Source: Tomocerus qinae (lineage: Eukaryota; Arthropoda; Collembola; Entomobryomorpha; Tomoceridae). Taken from it: a DNA stretch of 64,000 bases. The stretch is from NCBI GenBank assembly GCA_020055645.1, contig CM034547.1:1550001-1614000 (forward strand), read 5' to 3'. A model generated the notes under the pieces. It was not told the origin of the DNA. It ran no database searches and was given only the letters and a program-made list of their open reading frames with translations. Positions 24,394 through 61,093 of this stretch are shown here, piece after piece (the stretch's first letter is position 1; each line of letters begins with the position of its first letter). The translations under genes were made by a program, and so were the position numbers.

Positions 24394-24618
24394 TATTTGA
24401 CTCATTCCCTAGTAAAAGGGGCTTATATGATTTTGCAAATGAAATACCGTAGTAACCCAGTAGTAACCATAATTTTAAAGTCACTAAAGCCCGCCCAACT
24501 CTTTTTAAAATTTACTCTCAAGTTTCATTCATTTCTTTCAAATTGAGCTCGAAGTTTTACTCTAGGGTGAACTGAATCTGCGGTCCTTGTGTTTTCTGAG
24601 TTGCATTTTCCACAAAAA

Positions 24619-26476
24619 ATGAGTAAAAAGGTGGCAAAGGTTTCTTCGAAGCTGCTGGAAAACCTAAATTCTGGAAAGAAGAGAAAATTGAATATTCTAA
24701 GCTGGAAAGATCAAGTGGCCCAGTCCAGCAGAAATGAAGGAGAACCATATCAAGGAAGAAATGGAATGCTAAACCCTCCAAGAATACCTCCCCAACTAGA
24801 CGTAATTCTTGAATAATAATTAAGAAATTGTCATTCTTTGTATTATTTAATATATTAAAAGTAACTAGAGGAAACGTTTCTTGGCCCAGATCTGCTCTCA
24901 AGGGTGTCAAAAGGAAGGATGTCATTCTATCAATGTAGAGAGAAAAGTAGAACTATTCCAACAATTTTGGAGTACTGGAAATTATGATTCGCAGACAAGT
25001 ATCCTATCTCGGTACATTCGAAAAATGTCTAAAGCAGATGAAAATAATCGTTTACGTCAATTTTACTGTTATTTCCTCCCGGATACTTCTGGATTTCAGA
25101 TGACGGTATGCAAAAAAACGTTTTTGCGAGTTTTCGGAATAGGCAAAAAGCGAGTAGAAGTTTTACAGAAAAAGATCTCGTCTGGAATCCTAAATTTTGC
25201 TGATAAAAGGGGCAGCCATGAAAACTACAGACGGTTTCCGGAAAATGGTTGGAATCTAATACATGCACATATTCAAAGTTATGAGACTTCCTGTAGCCAC
25301 TATTCCAGAAGCAATGGTGACCCTACTCGACAATACCTAGCGAGGGACTTGTCCATATCACGAATGTTCCGCGACTTTGTTGAATTGTATGATGAAGCTG
25401 CGGACTGGGAGTGGGCCTACCGAACATGCTTCAAGGAATTAGGACTCAAGTTTGCTGCTCTCAAGTCTGACACATGTGGAAGATGTGATCTCTATGAGTC
25501 TCAAATCCGTAATCATGATGGTTCCGAAGCTGAGCTAGAAGAATTTTGGACTACAAAAATGGAACATCATCTACTAGCTGAAAATGCTTATCAATGTCTC
25601 CGTGATGATACAGAGCAGAGCAGAATAGATCCTGATTTTGTAACTATTTGTGTTGATTTGCAAGGTGTTTTACTTTGTCCCCGTTTAACGAATTCAGAAT
25701 ACTATTACCAAAGAAAGTATACGTGCTACAATTTAGCGATTAACAACCCCGCAGAAGATCAAACTACGATGGCTTTTTGGCACCAAGCAGAAGCAAGTCG
25801 TGGATCTTCGGAAGTCGCTTCGTGCGTATATAGGTATCTCATTGAAAATTATCGAATCTTAGAGGAAGGAGATAAGCGTATTTTGACCATATACTCTGAT
25901 CGCTGCGTTGGTCAAAACAATAACTTTATTGTTTTAGTCATGTACATGTTGCTAATTCGTCAAAATCGTTTCTCCGAAATACGGCAAAAGTTTATGACTA
26001 CAGGCCACAGCTTTTTACCTTGCGACAGACTGTTTTCCTTGATTGAGAAGAAGATGATGAAGGCTACCATCCATAAACCTGATGATTATATCAGTGTTAT
26101 TCAAGAGTCCAGAGTAGAGAAGCCTTATACTGTACAAAGAATGCTACAAGACGACTTTTTAGATTTTATGAATCTTTCTAATCAAGTGGTTCGTCCAGGA
26201 ACCCTGAAAGTTACGCAAATCATGTATGGTCTACTTACATCAGCCAATATTAATTTGCTCCAAACAAAATCTCACCTGTGGGATGAGGAGTGGCAACATC
26301 ACGTGTTGCAATTCAATGCAAATTTTGGTCTGCAGCCAGTACAAAGACTTTACCATTTCCCACTTCCTATTGCCGCAGCCTTGCAAAAGGATTTAAAGGA
26401 TATGATCCCTTTTCTAAATTCGGAATCTCAAGTGTTTTGGAGAAATTTCTGGGAAACTTATAATCAACAGGCTTGA
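24619..26476 (+). CDS. Probable transposase, Sola-like/DUF7869-like DDE protein, two exons, 589 aa
   Basis: Exon 1 24619-24801 (MSKKVAKVSS..., basic), intron 24802-24889 (GTAATT...CCCAG), exon 2 24890-26476. The junction is phase 0 and gives ...RIPPQLD-ICSQGCQ. Exon 2 was open without internal stop. Seen motifs: Cys-rich start (CSQGCQKEGC), KKTFLRVFGIGKKRV (helix-turn-helix-like), CGRCD (Cys257/Cys260), CVDLQGVLL (Asp317), YSDRCVGQNNNF (Asp398), GHSFLPCDRLFSLIEKK (His434, Asp440, Glu447). The spaced Asp-Asp-Asp/Glu set, the GQN and GHS motifs and the location between inverted repeats argue for a DNA transposase with an RNase-H-like core. The 611-aa protein at 56439-58458 has the same order. 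An intact frame suggests recent activity. A domesticated host gene is less likely because the TIRs are still visible. Confidence 0.75.
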
Positions 26477-26721
26477 AATATCCTATTTAAAGAAAACCTT
26501 CAGTTCGTCTTCAGTTCCCATGTTAATATTGCATTGTATAGTATTATCTAAGAATCTAAGGTTCATTCGTCATTATTGTTTTATTTAACAGATTGATTCG
26601 TTTTTCATAAGCTTACCCCGTCTGGTCACTATAAAATAAATTATTTGTTTACAAATATCTAAGCCCCTTTTACTATTGAATGAGTCATTTATCTTTACTT
26701 AATACACCCGATGGCTTAAAT
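26477..26721. other. Transposon 3' flank and right TIR up to MULE insertion
   Basis: Non-coding. Contains the right arm of the host transposon, reading TAAGCCCCTTTTACT...TTATCTTTACTTAATACACC, then the first copy of the MULE target GGCTTAAAT (26713-26721). Confidence 0.65.
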
Positions 26722-26753
26722 GGTATTGGGAATTTTCACATCTAAAGTTTTAC

Positions 26754-26890
26754 ATCCTGGGGTAGTGAAGTTTTACAACCAGCCACTGCAGTTTTACAAC
26801 CATGCACTGCAGTTTTACAACCGGCTACTGAAGTTTTACAACCAGCCACTGCAGTTTTACAACCACAAACGGCAGTTTTACAACCTTTCA
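26754..26890. repeat. 21-bp tandem repeat in left MULE arm
   Basis: About six copies of AGTTTTACAACCNGCCACTG. The mirror array is at 28786-28925 in inverted orientation. Confidence 0.8.
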
Positions 26891-28339
26891 AATGTAATGA
26901 ACTCAAAGTTTGGTAAAACCTAAATAAATGCTTAATAATTATATTAAGACGAAGTTTGGTTTTTAACCGACGGAATTGTGCATTATTGCTAAATTCTCGT
27001 ACGTAAATGCTCCATTCAAATCCAAAAGGATGGTAGAGATTATGGTTGTATTTACATACTCTGATATCATGTTAGTTTGGATTTTTAACTTTTCTGGATT
27101 TTGGTTAGAAACAATATCTTAATATTATACATTTTTGCACACTTTTTTCCTTTTTCAAACTAGGCTATGACTATGTGGAATTTTAGTACCACAGAGCCAC
27201 AGAATATATCTTGTAAGTCCAGTAAAACTGTCCAATCCAAAATTTTGATTTCCTGAAAGGTATTTTTTCGCCCATTCACTGCATTCTATCCTATCATCTC
27301 AAATTGAATAGGACTGGGTTTAGAAGGCCGAAAAAAACGCCTAGCTAAAAATAGGCAGGAAAGCAATGTGTAATATGCATTTCATAAGCGCCTGCGTATT
27401 TCGTTTTGAGAACACACTACCACACGTTCATACATAGATAGAAATATACGACAGGTAAAATTATTGCTTTATCAAGTGTACAAGTCTACAATATAGAGAG
27501 AAATTACATTTTTTCAATATTTCCAATAAGGATCTTTTGAAATTACTGCGACGAATTTGACAGGCTTCTATACGGCTTCGAAGGAAATCTCTCATTCAGC
27601 AGAGCTCCTTGTTGTCTAAAAACTGCACTTCTCACCAACTTTTGCACGAATTACAAAATCTATTGTTATAAAATAATGCTATTAGTCACTGTCAACCGTG
27701 ATGCTATTGGACACGAGCTATGTAAGCTGGTTTTCCTCACGGCAACAGTAGTATTTAGCACTCTTTGATATAAACTTTTGAAGGGCTGCACAAGGTTATG
27801 GTAATTTTCACATTAGGGCGGGCTTAAAATACTTTTATTTTCGGCTACAAAAACATGACTACGTTCTAATTCTAATCTATCTTTAGGGCCCATTAAATAT
27901 GTAATATGATGTGTTTGCACAGCGTTATAATAATTTTCCCTTCAGGGTGAGCTTTAGAAGCTGGCAAAATTACAGTTGCTAAGGTATTTATTTTATGAAA
28001 ATATCTAACCCCCTTATTGTATTAAAGCAGTCATTGATGCAAGCGGTAGCAGTTTTGTAAAATAGCAGCATGGCTAGTTTTGTAAAATCAGTTAGAGGAA
28101 AAGAAAAATTAGTGTGAATTATTCGCAAGGAGGTGGAATAGAAGAATCGTACAATTTTTTAAACGCAAACATTCCAATCTAAAATTAACACAATTAATTA
28201 ATTTACAAATATAAAAATATTTACGTGCTGCCAGTGTCAGTAATGACAAGCTGACAAATGCATTTAATAAAAATCATCATATATACGATATATATATATT
28301 ACTTCAATATTCATACAAATGATGCATAATTAATTTTTC

Positions 28340-28549: not shown

Positions 28550-28785
28550 GCTGCTATTTTACAAAACTGCTAAACTGTATTGTACTTCAGTTCTGATTTC
28601 TCGTCTACAAGTTTACTTTCATTGTATGTAAATACAACCATAATCTCTACCTACCTTTTGGATTTGATTGGAGCATTTACCATAATGCACCATTCCGTCG
28701 GTTAAAAACCAAACTTCGTCTTAATATAATTATAAGCATTTATTTAGGTTTTAACAAACTTTGAGTTCATTACATTTGAAAGGTT

Positions 28786-28925
28786 GTAAAACTGTCGTTT
28801 GTGGTTGTAAAACTGCAATGGCTGGTTGTAAAACTTCAGTAGCCGGTTGTAAAACTGCAGTGCATGGTTGTAAAACTGCAGTGGCTGGTTGTAAAACTTC
28901 ACTACCCCAGGATGTAAAACTTTAA
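28786..28925. repeat. 21-bp tandem repeat in right MULE arm
   Basis: Inverse of the array at 26754-26890: GGTTGTAAAACTGCAGTGGCT-type units. Confidence 0.8.
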
Positions 28926-28970
28926 ATGTGAAAATTCCTGGATCCGGCTTAAATACTTATTTATTACAAA

Positions 28971-29203: not shown

Positions 29204-30145
29204 GCGTATTTTAAGAATAGGTGGAGGAGTATCGGTATACGTTCGTGACAGACTACCTAGTAGGTGTTTGACTGACATTGAAATACCAGAAAACGTTGAG
29301 GCAGTCTGGATCTATGTAAGACCTACTAAAGGACCAGGCACTATCCTTATGGGAAACGTGAACCGACGGATGGGGCCCATTTCGATATATGTTTTTGACA
29401 CTTATATAGTGGTCAAAAGTGAAGAAGGAAAAACTCTGAATGTTGACACTTCGGGAGATAATGGGGGTCAAAGGTCAGCATTCCATTCCCTTATGACGTC
29501 CGTCGTGCCGTACGTCATTCGAAAGGCCTCACTTTCCTGAGTCCAAAAATACCACACACTTGACCTCTGTGACCGATAGGTCAAAAGCTATTAGCGAAAG
29601 AGTAGACATAGTTTAGTATTTATTGTATACTAGTATATTACCCGTCCTACGGACGGGGCAAAAATGAGTGGGTTTATAATAATATACTCAGTGTTTGGTG
29701 CTTAATGTCACCGAAATGGCGAATGTTGCCGGTGGTACCCCGTCGGAATGTAACATTCAGTGAGCGCAAAGCATATGCATTACAAAACATGAAGTTAGTT
29801 GATAATCAACCAAGTGAAAAGTGCCAAGAGAGTGCAATTGGTCTAAAGAATCCTATTGATTCAATGACCTATGCGGGTTTTCATTTAAAACGACAAACTG
29901 CTTTGCAGCTTTTATTATCATTATTCAATTATCGTCATTTATGTACGGACTCAGACAAACACACTAGGAAAATATCTTTAATGACAAGCCTTCAAATACG
30001 AAGACGTCGGCTGGACATTTGCCACCCAGGGCAGGGGGAACGTGGACCCCTCTTCGCTTGCTGCCCCACAGGGGTTGCTACAACCCACGGGCAGTACATT
30101 TGGTAAGTAAGTATAATAAGTATGACTAGATTGGGATGTATGGCT

Positions 30146-30185
30146 AACCTAACCTAACCTAACCTAACCTAACCTAACCTAACCT
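30146..30185. repeat. Interstitial telomeric repeat (AACCT)8
   Basis: Eight perfect AACCT units, the complement of the arthropod telomere repeat TTAGG, inside the fold-back core. Confidence 0.85.
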
Positions 30186-30317
30186 ATAACTAGATTGGGA
30201 TGTATAACTAGATGGGGATGTATGACTAGATGGAAATGTATGACTAGATGGGGATGAATGACTAGATGGGGATGTATGACTAGATGGGGATGTATGACTA
30301 GATTGGGATGTATGACT

Positions 30318-30342
30318 AACCTAACCTAACCTAACCTAACCT
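30318..30342. repeat. Interstitial telomeric repeat (AACCT)5
   Basis: Five perfect AACCT units, again bordered by the 18-bp satellite. Confidence 0.85.
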
Positions 30343-31310
30343 ATGACTAGATTGGGATGTATAACTAGATGGGGATGTATGACTAGATGGGGATGTATGA
30401 CTAGATGGGGATGTATGACTAGATGGGGATGTATGACTAGATGGGGATGTATGACTAGATGGGGATGTATGACTAGATGGGAATGTATGACTAGATGGGG
30501 ATGTATGACTAGATGGGAATGTATGACTAGATGGGGATGTATGACTAGATGGGGATGTATGACTAGATTGGGATGTATGACTAGATGGGGATGTATGACT
30601 AGATGGGGATGTATGACTAGATGGGGATGAATGACTAGATGGGGATGAATGACTAGATGGGGATGTATGACTAGATGGGGATGTATGACTAGATGGGGAT
30701 GTATGACTAGATGGGGATGTATGACTAGATGGGGATGTATGAGTAGATGGGGATGAATGACTAGATAGGGATGTATGACTAGATGGGGATGTATGACTAA
30801 ATGGGGATGTATGACTAGATGGACAAGTGTATTGGATATCTTCGGCCTTATATTTCGTAATGCATATGCTTTGCGCTCACTGAATGTTACATTCCGACGG
30901 TGTACCACTGGCAACATTCGCCATTTCGGTGACATTAAGCACCAAACACTGAGTATATTATTATAAACCCACCTACCTTTTGCCCCGTCCGTAGGACGGG
31001 TAATATACTAGTATACAATAAATACTAAACTATGTCTACTCTTTCGCTAATAGCTTTTGACCTATCGGTCACAGAGGTCAAGTGTGTGGTATTTTTGGAC
31101 TCAGGAAAGTGAGGCCTTTCGAATGACGTACGGCACGATGGACGTCATAAGGGAATGGAATGCTGACCTTTGACCCCCATTATCTCCCGAAGTGTCAACA
31201 TTCAGAGTTTTTCCTTCTTCACTTTTGACCACTATATAAGTGTCAAAAACATATATCGAAATGGGCCCCATCCGTCGGTTCACGTTTCCCATAAGGATAG
31301 TGCCTGGTCC

Positions 31311-40904: not shown

Positions 40905-43900
40905 TCATTGTGATATTGGCAAAGAGTTCCAGAAATCCGGTCGGTCAGTGAAATCTGAAGAAACCATTTGAAATGTTTCATCAATGAGAAACCACTTTAA
41001 ACTCTGATCATTAGGACTCAATGGTGTCCAGATTGTTCCCGTCTCCATGAAGCCATTTGGATCACTGAGAAAGGTGATCGCAAATTGACATTATTAATTG
41101 CAGGTGAAACAAAAATGCTGCCCCAAATAAAAGCAAAGAAACCCAATATACAAAGCTGGCTGGTACATGTTGACTTTTAACTATTATTTGCATACTATTT
41201 GCAGATGTCAATATATTTTGGTAGGCCATGGACAACGTACCTGGAATTGGCAAAATTAATTAAAAATTTGATGTATATCTTGGATATATTGTAATGTTCC
41301 GACCGCCGATCAATTTCAGGGAGGTCTGGGGATTTAAAAATCAGCTGCATATCATCCCCATGAGTAATACCTAAAGGGAAACCATTTTTTAGTTAACTTT
41401 TTGCCCAAAGCCTATGGTTATTACCCAGCTATGGGATAATGACATAAAAATGAACAAATAACGAATAATGTTAACAATGAATCCATTGCCTTAACTTAAG
41501 TTCAAATGTTGTGATGAATAAACTACCTATTTTTTCTGTCGTATTAAAGGTCGGATCAACCTCTAGTCCTGGGAGTTTGTTGTAAGTTGTCATAAAATTA
41601 AACACGGAGATGTTTGGATTACTTTGAGCATACGAAACAGCAAAGTCTTTAACTCCCTTCAAGAACCACCGATCGGTGTATACGTGTGCAAGTTTATCCT
41701 TAGTATCCCAACCAATTGAGTCGTTAGAACTGAAATAGAAACTTCTAATTTTTCTCTAGATATCTTCCCCAGCACTAGAATTGGATTCTTGAACGTCCTC
41801 ATAGAAGAATGTTATCGGAGCCACATAATTCCAATTCCAGTCCATAAATTGAGACAAGGATGCATCATGAGCCACATCTGTGCAAATTATTGGGATTAAT
41901 AGATTGCATTAGAGTTATCTTGACATAGCAATTAAGTTGTAAATTGACATCGAATGTGTTTTCTCACAAGCTCCATGTAGTAAAAGGCCATCTTCTTTAA
42001 CACAACCTGTCATCAGTGGTGCTTTATTGCTGGTGAAATTTTGGGCGTTGATAATTTGCCTCGGAGTTTGGGTTAAAAAGTTCTCGCTGCCGTCTCCGAT
42101 CTTTTTCTCTACGGAGGGCACGAAAACGTAAAGCGGGTCAACGAACCATTTGACAAACGGTTGTCGCTGTAATTTCACAATTTCTTTGGCGTCTTTATTT
42201 TGGAGGCAGGAGACGATGGCCTTGGTGTCGTTAAACAAACATCCCAGTTCCTTGGCGAGAATTTGAGTATTTCTGAGAGGCGTTGGTGCAAATGCCCACG
42301 GATTGAGGGAAGACCCGCCTAGGGCTATCGCCCTGTGGTATAACCCTCGACTCATCCAAGAGAGCATGTGGTATGTTACAGAGGCTCCCCCGGCACTGTA
42401 TCCCATGATGGTAACTTCCTTCGGATCACCATTGAAAAATTGAATATTTCGCTGGACCCACTCCAGAGCTTTGACTTGGTCCTTTAATCCCATATTTCCA
42501 GGCGCTTCTTCGTCTTCAGTACTCAGAAACCCTAATCATCAACATATCTATTGTCAGGCTTCGAATATGCAACTTTTTGGGTTAATGATTTTGTGGCTGT
42601 AGAAGAAGTAACTTTGGCAGTAAAATAAAGTCTTTATAAAGAAATAATAAGGTAATTATTTCGTTGGAGTTGTGGTCAGAAGGTCAGAATAGACACAGAC
42701 GTGGACTCGATTCTTTTATTTAGAAGACTCGGTTTTAGTAAAAAATGGCTTCCCAACTTGTTTATTCTTCCAATTCTGACACAGATTCAGAAATTGAAAA
42801 TAGTATCAATAATACCCCGAAAAATACTAAAATCAACTGGAAACTTGTAAAAAAAATATAATACTCAAGAAGAAGCCTCTGAAGACATTATAAGTGACTG
42901 GTATTTCAATACAAAAACCACAATCAAGATAGCGAAGTGATATATTATTTTTCCAAAGACAATAAAAAGTGTCCATGTAAGCGATTTTTTGACCTCAGAG
43001 ACCACAATGTGCCACGTCATCTACTCCCAAGAAAACTATAAAACCTCATCAGGTACTTGCCCAATTTACCAAAAAAACTACATGTGTAAGCATATATTAT
43101 CATAGGTATGGCCAGCATAAAGCATGAATAAATTGCCAACAATTCTCCCCAGCGCTAAACAGGTACCAATCGCTATAAAAAGCAAAGCGGGAAGACCTCG
43201 AGGTGTATCTAAAGCCCTAGTAAGACCATAAATTCTGAAATATGACACTGATTTGCCAGTTGACTTAATTTTGATTTAATTTTGAACTAATTTTGATTTA
43301 ATTTTGAACTAATTTTGATTTAATTTTGAACTAATTTTGATTTAATTTTGAACTAATTTTGATTTAATTTTGAACTAATTTTGATTTAATTTTGAACTAA
43401 TTTTGATTTAATTTTGAACTAACTTTGATTTAATTTTGAACTAATTTTGATTTAATTTTGAACTAATTTTGATTTAATTTTTGAACTAACTTTGATTTAA
43501 TTTTGAACTAATTTTGATTTAATTTTGAACTAATTTTGATTTAATTTTGAACTAATTTTGATTTAATTTTGAACTAATTTTGATTTAATTTTGAACTAAT
43601 TTTGATTTAATTTTGAACTAATTTTGATTTAATTTTTGAACTAATTTTGATTTAATTTTTGAACTAATTTTGATTTAATTTTGAACTAATTTTGATTTAA
43701 TTTTGAACTAACTTTGATTTAATTTTGAACTAATTTTGATTTAATTTTGAACTAATTTTGATTTAATTTTGAACTAATTTTGATTTAATTTTTGAACTAA
43801 CTTTGATTTAATTTTGAACTAATTTTGATTTAATTTTGAACTAATTTTGATTTAATTTTGAACTAATTTTGATTTAATTTTGAACTAATTTTGATTTAAT

Positions 43901-55938: not shown

Positions 55939-56187
55939 CATGGCTATAGTGTGGGGTTCGGCAAACAAAAAAGAGTTAAAAATAGTTGGTAACGTGCTTA
56001 GGAGGGCTGGCCGTATGATCTACAAAGGTTATGGTATGAGAATATTAAAGAGATAATCTCAACTAAATTAAATTGGTTATTTCCACATGAAATGTTCACA
56101 AAAAATTTACTCATGCTTGGACATTCTGTTATTTACAACACTTGTCCTCCTTATTTCGAGAATTATTTTGTTAAAAAGAGTACAATT

Positions 56188-58764
56188 GAGCATGGCAATT
56201 GAAAAAGTAACAGTTTCGATGGATTGCTAAAATTGGTTTATATAGATTTGCGAGGGAAACTGCAAATACCACGAATTTAAAAAATATGACTATTCATAAT
56301 AAAATATATTAGAGAAAATCATTCGAAGATTGACTAGCTATAATCTGGTCTTCGGTAATCTAGATTTTGCATTAGTAGCATAAAATTCTAGGGTTTTACC
56401 CAGCAGAAAGCATTTTAGTGGTATATTTGTAACCAAAAATGGAACCATTAGCTGACCCAATACCTGAACTAAACCGACCAAAAAAACGTTCAAGGCATCC
56501 AGAGCTATGGAGGCACAACGCTATTAAAATCCTAAAAACCAGAGGTAAACAAAAATAGTCTTATATTAACCATTAATATTTCGAAATTAGAAAGTGTTTC
56601 AAATATAACCCATAATAAATTCTTACAGGCTTAGAGCATCGAAGTCATACCTGGAGAAATGTTATACATCCTGCCCGTCATATAGTAGAAGAACCATGTA
56701 GAGACAACTGTCATTTAAGAGTCGTCCGGGAAGAAAAAGAATGGTTACTACAAAAATTCAATAATTTACCCAGTCACGAGGCACAAAACGTTTATCTACA
56801 ATCTTGTACAGTGCCAAAAGAAAATCGAAGATTTGACTACCTTCTTCAACTTCCCGAAAGACTGGAAATAGTCTGTCAAAAAACGTTTTTAAATGTTCAC
56901 GGTAATAGAAGATCGCGTCTTCAACGCAAGGTATATATCATCTTTAAGAGCAATAACATTTTGATTTCTAAATCTAAACCAAACTTTCTTGAGACAATGA
57001 AAGACTATTTAAACTTGATCTTCACTTCAGGTTTTACAACGACAACTCCCGATTAACGATGGTCGCGGAAAACACGGAAATCATAAAACCCTTGACGCAG
57101 TTAACATCCAAATTGTTAGAAATTTCATACAAAATCTGAATACGAGGGAAAGTCACTATTCGCGGAATGGCAACATGAACAAAACTTACTTAGATTCGAA
57201 TACAACACTAACGTCAATCTACAACTCTCTGCTAACAGAAAATCCTGGATTAAATCCGAATATTTATGAAAATGGAATAAGCAAATCGAAGTTTGTTCAA
57301 ATATTTAATTATGAATTCAACGTTGGTTTAGGGTACCCTCGAAGTGATATCTGCGATTTTTGTGAAAAGATTCAAGCAAACATTAAAAGTGCTACAATGG
57401 ATAACAACGAAGAAAAACTATGGAACTTAACGTTAGAACAGCAAGAGCATTGGAGTGAAGCTGAGATATTTTACCAAAAAATGTCGAAAGAAGTCATTAA
57501 TCAAACAGATAATACACATATTTATTTATGTTTCGATTATCAGAAGAACCTCCCGTATCCCGTAACCAATATCTCTAAAGAATTTTTCCTCGGACAGATG
57601 TGGTTATATAATTTTGGTGTTCGAAATCTTGGGAGTGGAGAAACATATATGTTTTGTTATAGTGAAACTTTTGCGCACAAAGGCTCTACTGAAGTCATTA
57701 GCTTCATCAAATATTACATTGAACGATTCGTACCCCAAAATATCACTCATTTGCATTTATTTTGTGATAATAGTTTTGGGCAAAACAAGAACCGATTTTT
57801 AATGGCATACCTTCTATCAATCTGCCCGGAAAGATTTGAAACAATTAGCTTTGACTTTCCTCTTCCTGGTCACAGTATGATGCTCATAGATTCAGATTTT
57901 GCCCACATAGAGAAAAAAAAGAGGAAAGAAGATAAAGTTCTATACCCTTCACAATGGGTAGAAATGATAAGAAATGCCCGACCGGTGAGACCTTTCAATG
58001 TATTATATGTCAACCATCCGCTTACTAACGACTTGTGTGATGACGGGACTCCTATATGTAACGTTTTTAACTTCAAAACTACAATGAACCCACTACTAAG
58101 ACCGTCTGGAGGACTAATTGCAGAAATTCGGGGTCTCCTATATTCACAAAATGGAGTTTTGGTCAGAAATACTCTTTCAGGGAATTGCACTACCCGCTTC
58201 AACTTATTGCGGCGTGGAGTAACTAAAGCAAACCTTCAGAATGTAATACAAGAAACCCCTTTAGCATATAACGCATTTATTCCTGTTGCACCAGAAAAAA
58301 TTGAAAACCTCAAGGTGTTGCTGACTGCATTTTATCGACCAGGAGAAACTGATTTTTATGATGCTATTTTAAACATGCCATTCGAAGAGAATGACACAAG
58401 ACTTGATGTAATAAATGAATTTATGGATGAGGGCTTCGATATTAGCTTCTTAGCATGAAGTAAAAACAAATTAAAATTTACAGAATATTTAGTTGAATTT
58501 GGTTACTACATTTACGATTATCTTCAGGTATTTAGCAAAATTTCGTGTGATTACTTAGTTAATTTGGGCTTTAAGTTTTTTAAACTTTTCGGTTAACGTA
58601 GTAATAAAGTCTAATATTATGTATAGTATTAACCAAGCTTGCTTATGGATACTCATTTCTCTTCGCAATTTATAAAAATCTCCTAGTTACATTGTTTATT
58701 ACCTAAGTAAATACGACAGTAAACGCCGGTTTTTGAAACTGTTACTTTTTCAATTGCCATGCTC
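56188..58764 (+). mobile_element. Complete TIR DNA transposon, perfect 30-bp TIRs, 4-bp TSD AATT
   Basis: TIR GAGCATGGCAATTGAAAAAG + TAACAGTTTC at 56188-56217 and its exact reverse complement at 58735-58764. AATT at 56184-56187 and 58765-58768. The host LINE reads ...KKSTIHNYDTRNK... when the element and one AATT are removed. Single three-exon gene inside on the + strand. Sola elements have 4-bp duplications (family knowledge), so that superfamily is the first candidate. Confidence 0.88.
56439..58458 (+). CDS. Probable transposase, Sola-like/DUF7869-like DDE protein, three exons, 611 aa
   Basis: Exon 1 56439-56544 (MEPLADPIPELNRPKKRSRH), intron GTAAAC...TTACAG, exon 2 56629-56930, intron GTATAT...CTTCAG, exon 3 57031-58458. 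Phases 1 and 0 fit exactly and no stop interrupts. Motifs: C-x(3)-C early in exon 2 (EEPCRDNCHL), QKTFLNVHGNRRSRLQRK (helix-turn-helix-like), CDFC (Cys244/Cys247), CFDYQ (Asp305), LFCDNSFGQNKNRF (Asp382), PGHSMMLIDSDFAHIEKKKR (His417, Asp423 or 425, Glu430). Same layout as the 589-aa protein at 24619-26476 although sequences are far apart. Perfect TIRs, a TSD and an intact frame indicate an autonomous, recently active transposase. Database naming (DUF7869 or Sola) is recalled and not verified. Confidence 0.8.
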
Positions 58765-59310
58765 AATTCATAATTATGATACTAGAAATAAAGATGAGAT
58801 TTTTTGTAAAGGTGTACAAAAAATTAAGTATAGTGAAAGGGTCTTAGAGAGTATTGTTTCGCGAACTTGGAATTGTCTCCCATCTTCTCTTCAAGAGAAC
58901 GATAATGTTATTTCATTCAGTAAACAACTAAAAATGTGCTTACTGCAGCAACAGATTTGCGAAACACAACTCTCAACTGATAACCAAAACTCGAAAAAGA
59001 AGTGTAACTTGTCATGCATTGATTTTAACATAAGTGATCTAAGTCCTATTCATTAAGTGTAATTTATATCATTAGTATTGTTATTGATACAACGAAATGT
59101 ACCTAAGTATAGCAGATAAAATTAATGTCTTAAATAAGTTGAGATTTACCATGTATATGCCATAAATGAAAAACCAATGTTATTTCTACCTATGTAAACC
59201 TGTGACTTTTCAACTTAAGTGCTCATGTACACTGTAATGAGAAGTTGATCATAATAAATACATACATACATACATACTCCCGGAAATTATAATATAGTAT
59301 AGATGTAATA

Positions 59311-60110: not shown

Positions 60111-60406
60111 GGGTGAGCCTGTATTGTATTGTCCTTGTTATCTGATGAGGTGGCAAATTATTAGGGATGGGGATAAGGCAACCAGGCGATTGAGAAATTC
60201 CTATTCCTGGAAGATTTAAATATACAAAAACCAAGACAACAAAATTCAAGATTCGCATGTAAAATCAAACAATTGAGGATTTGTTCGGTGATAATTTTCT
60301 GCAGGTGATGGATTTGCAGTCAGATTTGCAGTCATTCTAAAAATATTTTTCAATTCGGCTAGGGATATTTTTGTGCTCTTCAGAATTTCGAACTTTGTGA
60401 TCGAGT

Positions 60407-61093
60407 ATGACTGCGTACAGAGATATTTGTTGTGATGGTTTGTACTACGAACCAGATGTCCGTTGCGAGAGAGCGACTTTCGGAATGAATTGCTTCTGGG
60501 CCCCCGAAGCGATTTTTGGATGTACGGGAGGAGTGCTCCGAACTCGGGTGGGATACGCTGGAGGAACGATCCTCAATCCGACTTACGACAGAATCTACGA
60601 CTACACGGAAACCGTGGACATTGAGTTCGACCCGATGGCAACAAACTACTCGAAACTGCTGGCTATCTTCTGGAAGAACCACGATCCGACCTCTCCCTGC
60701 ACTCGTCAGTACCAATCAGTCATTTTCTACCACTCCCCGGAGCAGAGGGAATTGGCAGAGAAAACTCTGAGAGCGGAAGTTGCCAACCGAAGTCGTCCCA
60801 TCAAAACCCGCATTTTCCCAGCTAAAGAATTCTACGAGGCTGAAGAATACCATCAAAAGTATTTTCTTCAGAAATACCCATGGCTTCTGGAGATGCTGGA
60901 TATTAAAGTTGGATTGCCCATCATTCGTTCAAAAGTCGCGGCTCGTCTGAATGGATACGTTGCTGGGTTTGCATCCCCGCAATGTTTTGAGATGGAATGG
61001 CGAAAACTTGGACTTTGTTGCGAAGTCGTCGAGTACGTCCGCAAAACCATCGCACTCAACTACAAAAAGCCTATTGGGTGCCCGCCTCATTAA
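60407..61093 (+). CDS. msrA: Peptide-methionine (S)-S-oxide reductase MsrA, intronless, 228 aa
   Basis: Repairs oxidised methionine (the S-sulfoxide) in proteins and free Met, using a catalytic Cys recycled by thioredoxin. Seen: ATFGMNCFWAPEAIFG with the catalytic Cys29 (family consensus GCFWG.E; here Met-Asn before Cys and Ala-Pro after Trp), GVLRTRVGYAGG, NPTYDRIYDYTETVDIEFDP, FWKNHDPT, RQYQSVIFYHSPEQ and KEFYEAEEYHQKYF, all in family order. Cys pairs near the C-terminus (GLCCEVVEYV; PIGCPP) could serve as resolving cysteines. Length fits animal MsrA with a C-terminal extension. GC content is higher than the surroundings. It is on the opposite strand to the esterase and would lie within esterase intron 1. 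No targeting peptide is evident. Confidence 0.92.
   Translation: MTAYRDICCDGLYYEPDVRCERATFGMNCFWAPEAIFGCTGGVLRTRVGYAGGTILNPTYDRIYDYTETVDIEFDPMATNYSKLLAIFWKNHDPTSPCTRQYQSVIFYHSPEQRELAEKTLRAEVANRSRPIKTRIFPAKEFYEAEEYHQKYFLQKYPWLLEMLDIKVGLPIIRSKVAARLNGYVAGFASPQCFEMEWRKLGLCCEVVEYVRKTIALNYKKPIGCPPH

Follow-up and report, generated by a model that had tools for sequence, protein, structure and literature searches.

The window analyzed here, a 64,000-nucleotide stretch of Tomocerus qinae contig CM034547.1, harbors at positions 56188–58764 an element of 2577 bp. The initial annotation had described it as a TIR transposon with perfect 30-bp inverted ends and an AATT on each side, which was borne out by arm pairing: the left TIR (56188–56217, + strand, also recovered by a 30-bp pattern search) and the right TIR (58735–58764, − strand) are directly bordered by AATT at 56184–56187 and 58765–58768, neither of them assigned to a strand, and the arms 56184–56217 and 58735–58768 pair over 34 nt with 100% complementarity, corresponding to the 30-bp TIR plus the palindromic AATT. 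The flanks of the element are the two halves of one LINE reading frame, and joining them with one AATT restores this frame, in agreement with the annotated insertion into a LINE whose frame is regained on excision. The joined flanks match six other places in the genome end to end with 90–97% identity, and in all six of these empty LINE copies the junction is occupied by just one 4-bp target (five AATT, one AATC); this count refers to end-to-end matches, four partial matches that span the junction by coordinates (81–84% identity) being kept apart from it. Since the empty copies carry one 4-bp target, the AATT was duplicated upon insertion, as had also been annotated, and the element is an insertion with a 4-bp target duplication.

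The element carries a gene of three exons on the + strand. Exon 1 (56439–56544) holds the start ATG, exon 2 (56629–56930) encodes C59, C63 and C118, which are conserved in the family alignment, and exon 3 (57031–58458) comprises the DUF7869 core and the stop codon. The joined exons encode 611 aa in one open frame that ends in a stop, and the GT/AG splice sites are kept in all eight aligned copies, which confirms the single intact gene predicted earlier. Up to an E value of 10, DUF7869 (PF25273) is the only Pfam match of the 611-aa protein, as the initial annotation had anticipated (residues 332–452, E 2.3e-8; 34.3 bits, above the curated cut-off of 26), and the same model is matched by five of five other scanned proteins of this genome. 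Strong purifying selection has acted on the window gene: its comparison with four of seven near full-length relatives in the genome gave a dN of 0.077–0.079 and a dS of 1.00–1.02, i.e. a ratio of 0.076–0.078. The dN/dS values for exons 1 to 3 against one of these relatives (L005) were 0.051/0.46, 0.064/1.12 and 0.084/1.06, and identity amounted to 82–89% in the exons, 70–74% in the introns, 83% in the leader and 76% in the trailer. When the copies are joined along the exon borders of the window copy, the frame is fully open in this copy and in L005; the other six copies contain frame breaks or stops.

We compared the protein with its relatives in an alignment of 239 rows (6 from the host genome, 11 bacterial and 222 from protein searches). 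Two aspartates stand out as proposed first and second catalytic residues, namely D305 (57535–57537, + strand; D in 237 of 238 aligned sequences, one V) and D382 of the D-x(3)-GQNKN motif (57766–57768, + strand; D in 235/235). For the third position, Glu430 had been suggested initially, within a motif given as GHSx(5)Dx(6)E. The sequence in fact reads GHS-x(4)-D-x(6)-E, and the glutamate is not conserved past the nearer relatives: of the residues aligned at position 430, 67 of 88 are E within the set of 94 nearer sequences, in the wider set 75 of 227 are E and 127 are K, and the bacterial rows contain K (10) or R (1). We therefore rejected E430 as a catalytic residue, as it is mostly K in the wider alignment while D423 (57889–57891, + strand) is nearly invariant, with D in 227 of 229 aligned sequences (two N) and in 89/89 of the nearer set. 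Hence, judged from conservation, the triad is most likely DDD, composed of D305, D382 and D423. Near-invariance in the 239-row alignment extends to C59, C63, C118, C244, C247 and H276. Averaged Chou–Fasman propensities weakly suggest that D305 and D382 are each closely preceded by a strand and that D423 is soon followed by a helix. PDB chains gave no match to the profile at E≤10, and in NCBIfam six families of unrelated names were each matched by one of 20 members (best E 0.008).

Further copies of the family were sought in the host genome (334 Mb, 115 contigs). The 30-bp end pattern, allowing up to three mismatches, gave 48 matches compared to none for a reversed control, so that additional copies with the same ends are indeed present. 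Sorted by position, these matches resolve into 11 two-ended copies, 10 of them besides the window copy, and 26 single left ends. AATT is found on both flanks in nine of the 11; the exceptions are a copy at C4:10.30 Mb (ATAA/AATT) and L007 (AATT/ACGA). L007 and its neighbor L008 (C4:20150381–20155724) are inverted relative to each other and separated by 32 bp, and part of a transposon end lies between them, an arrangement that perhaps arose by aberrant or nested transposition. The seven near full-length relatives are 81–82% identical to the window copy by alignment (79% in the search listing) and 99.4–99.9% identical among themselves, the latter of which indicates that their subfamily expanded recently in a burst; the window copy is the sole member of its own subfamily. 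Of the single left ends, 20 were fetched, and in 18 of these the right end is diverged and resembles GAAACTTTAACTTTTTC...GCTC; no such right end was found in L053 and L055. Matching 4-bp flanks are present in 16 of the 18 (14 AATT, one AACT and one AGTT; L045 and L054 are mismatched). For the AGTT and AACT copies, a genome search for empty sites returned their own flanks only. The AGTT copy, L048, holds a DUF7869 frame of 543 aa, and we therefore take it to represent an autonomous sister family.

A family search revealed at least 131 DUF7869 loci in the host genome, a lower bound as 150 of 183 candidates were scored; in 14 control genomes the same search found none. One of these elements lies in the window itself. 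This second DUF7869 transposon (24399–26686, + strand) has the ends GACTCATT, an ATTT duplication at 24395–24398 and 26687–26690 and an open DUF7869 frame of 535 aa (24869–26476, + strand; E 9e-14). Many genomic copies of it were listed, and among the shorter ones that were fetched most duplications are AATT or ATTT. Counting nine fetched copies plus the one in the window, with the single-ended L077 and L078 excluded, the flanks match in nine of 10 two-ended copies (seven AATT, two ATTT), the mismatched one being L065/L066. A fourth family consists of two copies with 99.9% identity, L084 (AAAT/AAAT) and L083 (AATT/ATTG). L083 and L045 are alike in having AATT on the left and ATTG on the right, as though the right junction had lost one A. 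Across these elements with different ends, the longest open frame is that of DUF7869. Combining the four families, to which the two larger and unbounded DUF7869 families L079/L080 and L081/L082 do not contribute, 41 copies were examined at both ends, and their 4-bp flanks match in 35 and differ in six. Among the 35 matched duplications, 33 conform to AWWT, the exceptions being AACT and AGTT; 30 are AATT and none is TTAA. The background frequencies of 4-mers in the window are 1.4% for AATT and 5.4% for AWWT. The matching pairs include the non-palindromic AACT, AGTT, ATTT (twice) and AAAT. The DUF7869 proteins of L079 and L081 (675 and 748 aa) contain a GHTKF-x-PD motif that also occurs in the bacterial proteins, along with a C-terminal zinc-knuckle-like stretch.

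Several other features are found in the window. An inverted repeat of 206 nt and 98% complementarity (26729–26934 and 28733–28938) is of the fold-back type and contains 21-bp GGTTGTAAAACTGC-type units. Short (CCTAA)n arrays, of the arthropod telomere repeat type, are located at 30144–30186 and 30316–30343, inside or beside an 18-bp satellite (30185–30822) and 1.58 Mb from the contig start. Pieces of host genes at 60401–61090 and 41918–42535 correspond to a peptide methionine sulfoxide reductase A and a carboxylesterase stretch.

Outside this genome, three protein searches gave 93, 103 and 497 matches, with names taken from the best 120 of the 497 in the last. The named taxa among the matches listed comprise beetles, moths, a butterfly, an aphid, a springtail, a leafhopper, molluscs, an annelid, echinoderms and a sponge, and the names among them are of the 'uncharacterized', 'unnamed', 'hypothetical' or 'DUF7869' kind. 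A scan of bacterial and archaeal genomes yielded 11 bacterial loci, and no relative was found in the viral contigs scanned. When the profile of the clade of the window protein (A1) was compared with the profile that finds the bacterial members (A3), the two matched with a probability of 100 over 531 columns. Inverted arms of 39–61 nt surround the gene in six of the eight bacterial loci searched (L091, L092, L093, L095, L096 and L098) and were not found at L097 and L099; the remaining three of the 11 loci (L094, L100 and L101) were outside this search. With the ends of the six elements placed at the G run, all six left flanks conform to AWWT and the right flanks read AATT, AAAT, ATGT and, three times, ATTT. 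The duplications match in two of the six only, L092 (AATT) and L093 (AAAT).

The explanation that we favor with good confidence is that the element is a complete and autonomous DNA transposon that moves by cut-and-paste and probably belongs to the Sola superfamily (Sola2-type), with the 611-aa DUF7869 protein as its transposase. The protein would bind the 30-bp ends, and these would be cut by an RNase-H-like active site that D305, D382 and D423 form together. The conserved Cys/His positions would make up zinc-binding, DNA-recognition modules. Strand transfer with a 4-bp stagger would then give rise to the duplication. A sister enzyme, for example that of L048, probably mobilizes the related non-autonomous copies whose left end is nearly identical. 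The AACT and AGTT duplications outside AWWT, the mismatched flanks in six of 41 copies, the matching of only two of six bacterial duplications, the lack of a PDB match to the profile at E≤10 and the rare substitutions at D423 (N in two of 229) and D305 (V in one of 238) count against this explanation.

The strongest competing view holds that DUF7869 elements form a separate superfamily of DDD transposases, extending from bacteria to animals and merely sharing the AWWT target with Sola2. Our literature searches found no mention of DUF7869 or PF25273, with or without transposition, no paper on a new superfamily and, for GQNKN, no transposon paper by title. Likewise, no named match among those listed, which are the best 120 of 497 in the largest search, is called Sola or transposase. 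The length of the duplication, the AWWT preference and the putative DDD pattern are nevertheless Sola2-like, and bacterial members are a trait of Sola as well, which makes a separate superfamily unlikely. In its fullest form, DUF7869 would be an unrecognized DDD superfamily apart from Sola that includes insertion sequences of bacteria as well as DNA transposons of animals under one AWWT 4-bp target rule, has been left as 'uncharacterized protein' in animal genomes and, as near-identical copies suggest, may still be moving; this we regard as unlikely.

We further considered that the DUF7869 protein might be a passenger of elements that are moved by another transposase. In its favor, many copies are non-autonomous and must move in trans. 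Against it, no other open frame is longer than that of the DUF7869 protein in elements whose ends differ, the protein sits between inverted arms in bacteria as well, its three aspartates are nearly invariant and its dN/dS is about 0.077. We consider this alternative very improbable. Finally, Spy elements insert at an A/T palindrome and are not known to make a target duplication, and the palindromic AATT does extend the arms perfectly, yet a 34-bp inverted repeat lacking a target duplication is refuted here by the single 4-mer in 6/6 empty sites read and by the non-palindromic matching pairs, which exclude a palindrome artefact and set the element, with its evident duplication, apart from Spy.

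A large family of 'unknown function' gains a likely function, for which insertion sites, together with empty sites and target rules, provide the evidence, and the likely catalytic triad shifts to D305/D382/D423. One target preference links the animal and bacterial elements, and many 'uncharacterized proteins' could be reclassified as transposases. Given its near-identical copies, the family is also a candidate on which activity assays could be performed.

For the Sola superfamily and its Sola2 group, Bao et al. 2009 is reportedly the reference. In the literature, Sola is described as a DDD transposase with 4-bp duplications that is found in bacteria and metazoans among others (PMC10741241), and the dictyostelid Sola2 elements have 4-bp AWWT duplications, a feature held to be consistent with Sola2 (PMC3627910). 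Going by these published descriptions, the DUF7869 elements share with Sola2 the TIRs, the AT-rich 4-bp AWWT duplications, a putative DDD pattern and the presence of both bacterial and animal members. They differ in that the ends of the dictyostelid elements are reported to be shorter (12, 13 or 21 bp compared to 30 bp) and their protein comprises 888 aa instead of 611 aa (PMC3627910). Kolobok and piggyBac likewise produce 4-bp duplications, but their target is TTAA (PMC9587614) while here it is mostly AATT/AWWT, and a TTAA superfamily was rejected because TTAA accounts for 0/35 matched duplications. The initial annotation had named Sola as the nearest superfamily, which the 4-bp duplications support, with the AWWT target pointing to Sola2. 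Since Sola2 duplications are AWWT and Sola is a DDD transposase with 4-bp duplications, the elements can, by analogy to the target rule, DDD pattern and range described in publications, probably be filed under Sola2. The Pfam model DUF7869 (PF25273), which the protein matches, names no function and is tied here to TIR elements with target duplications. We thus take the element to represent a new family of a known kind, the useful new point being the probable link of DUF7869 to Sola-type transposition.
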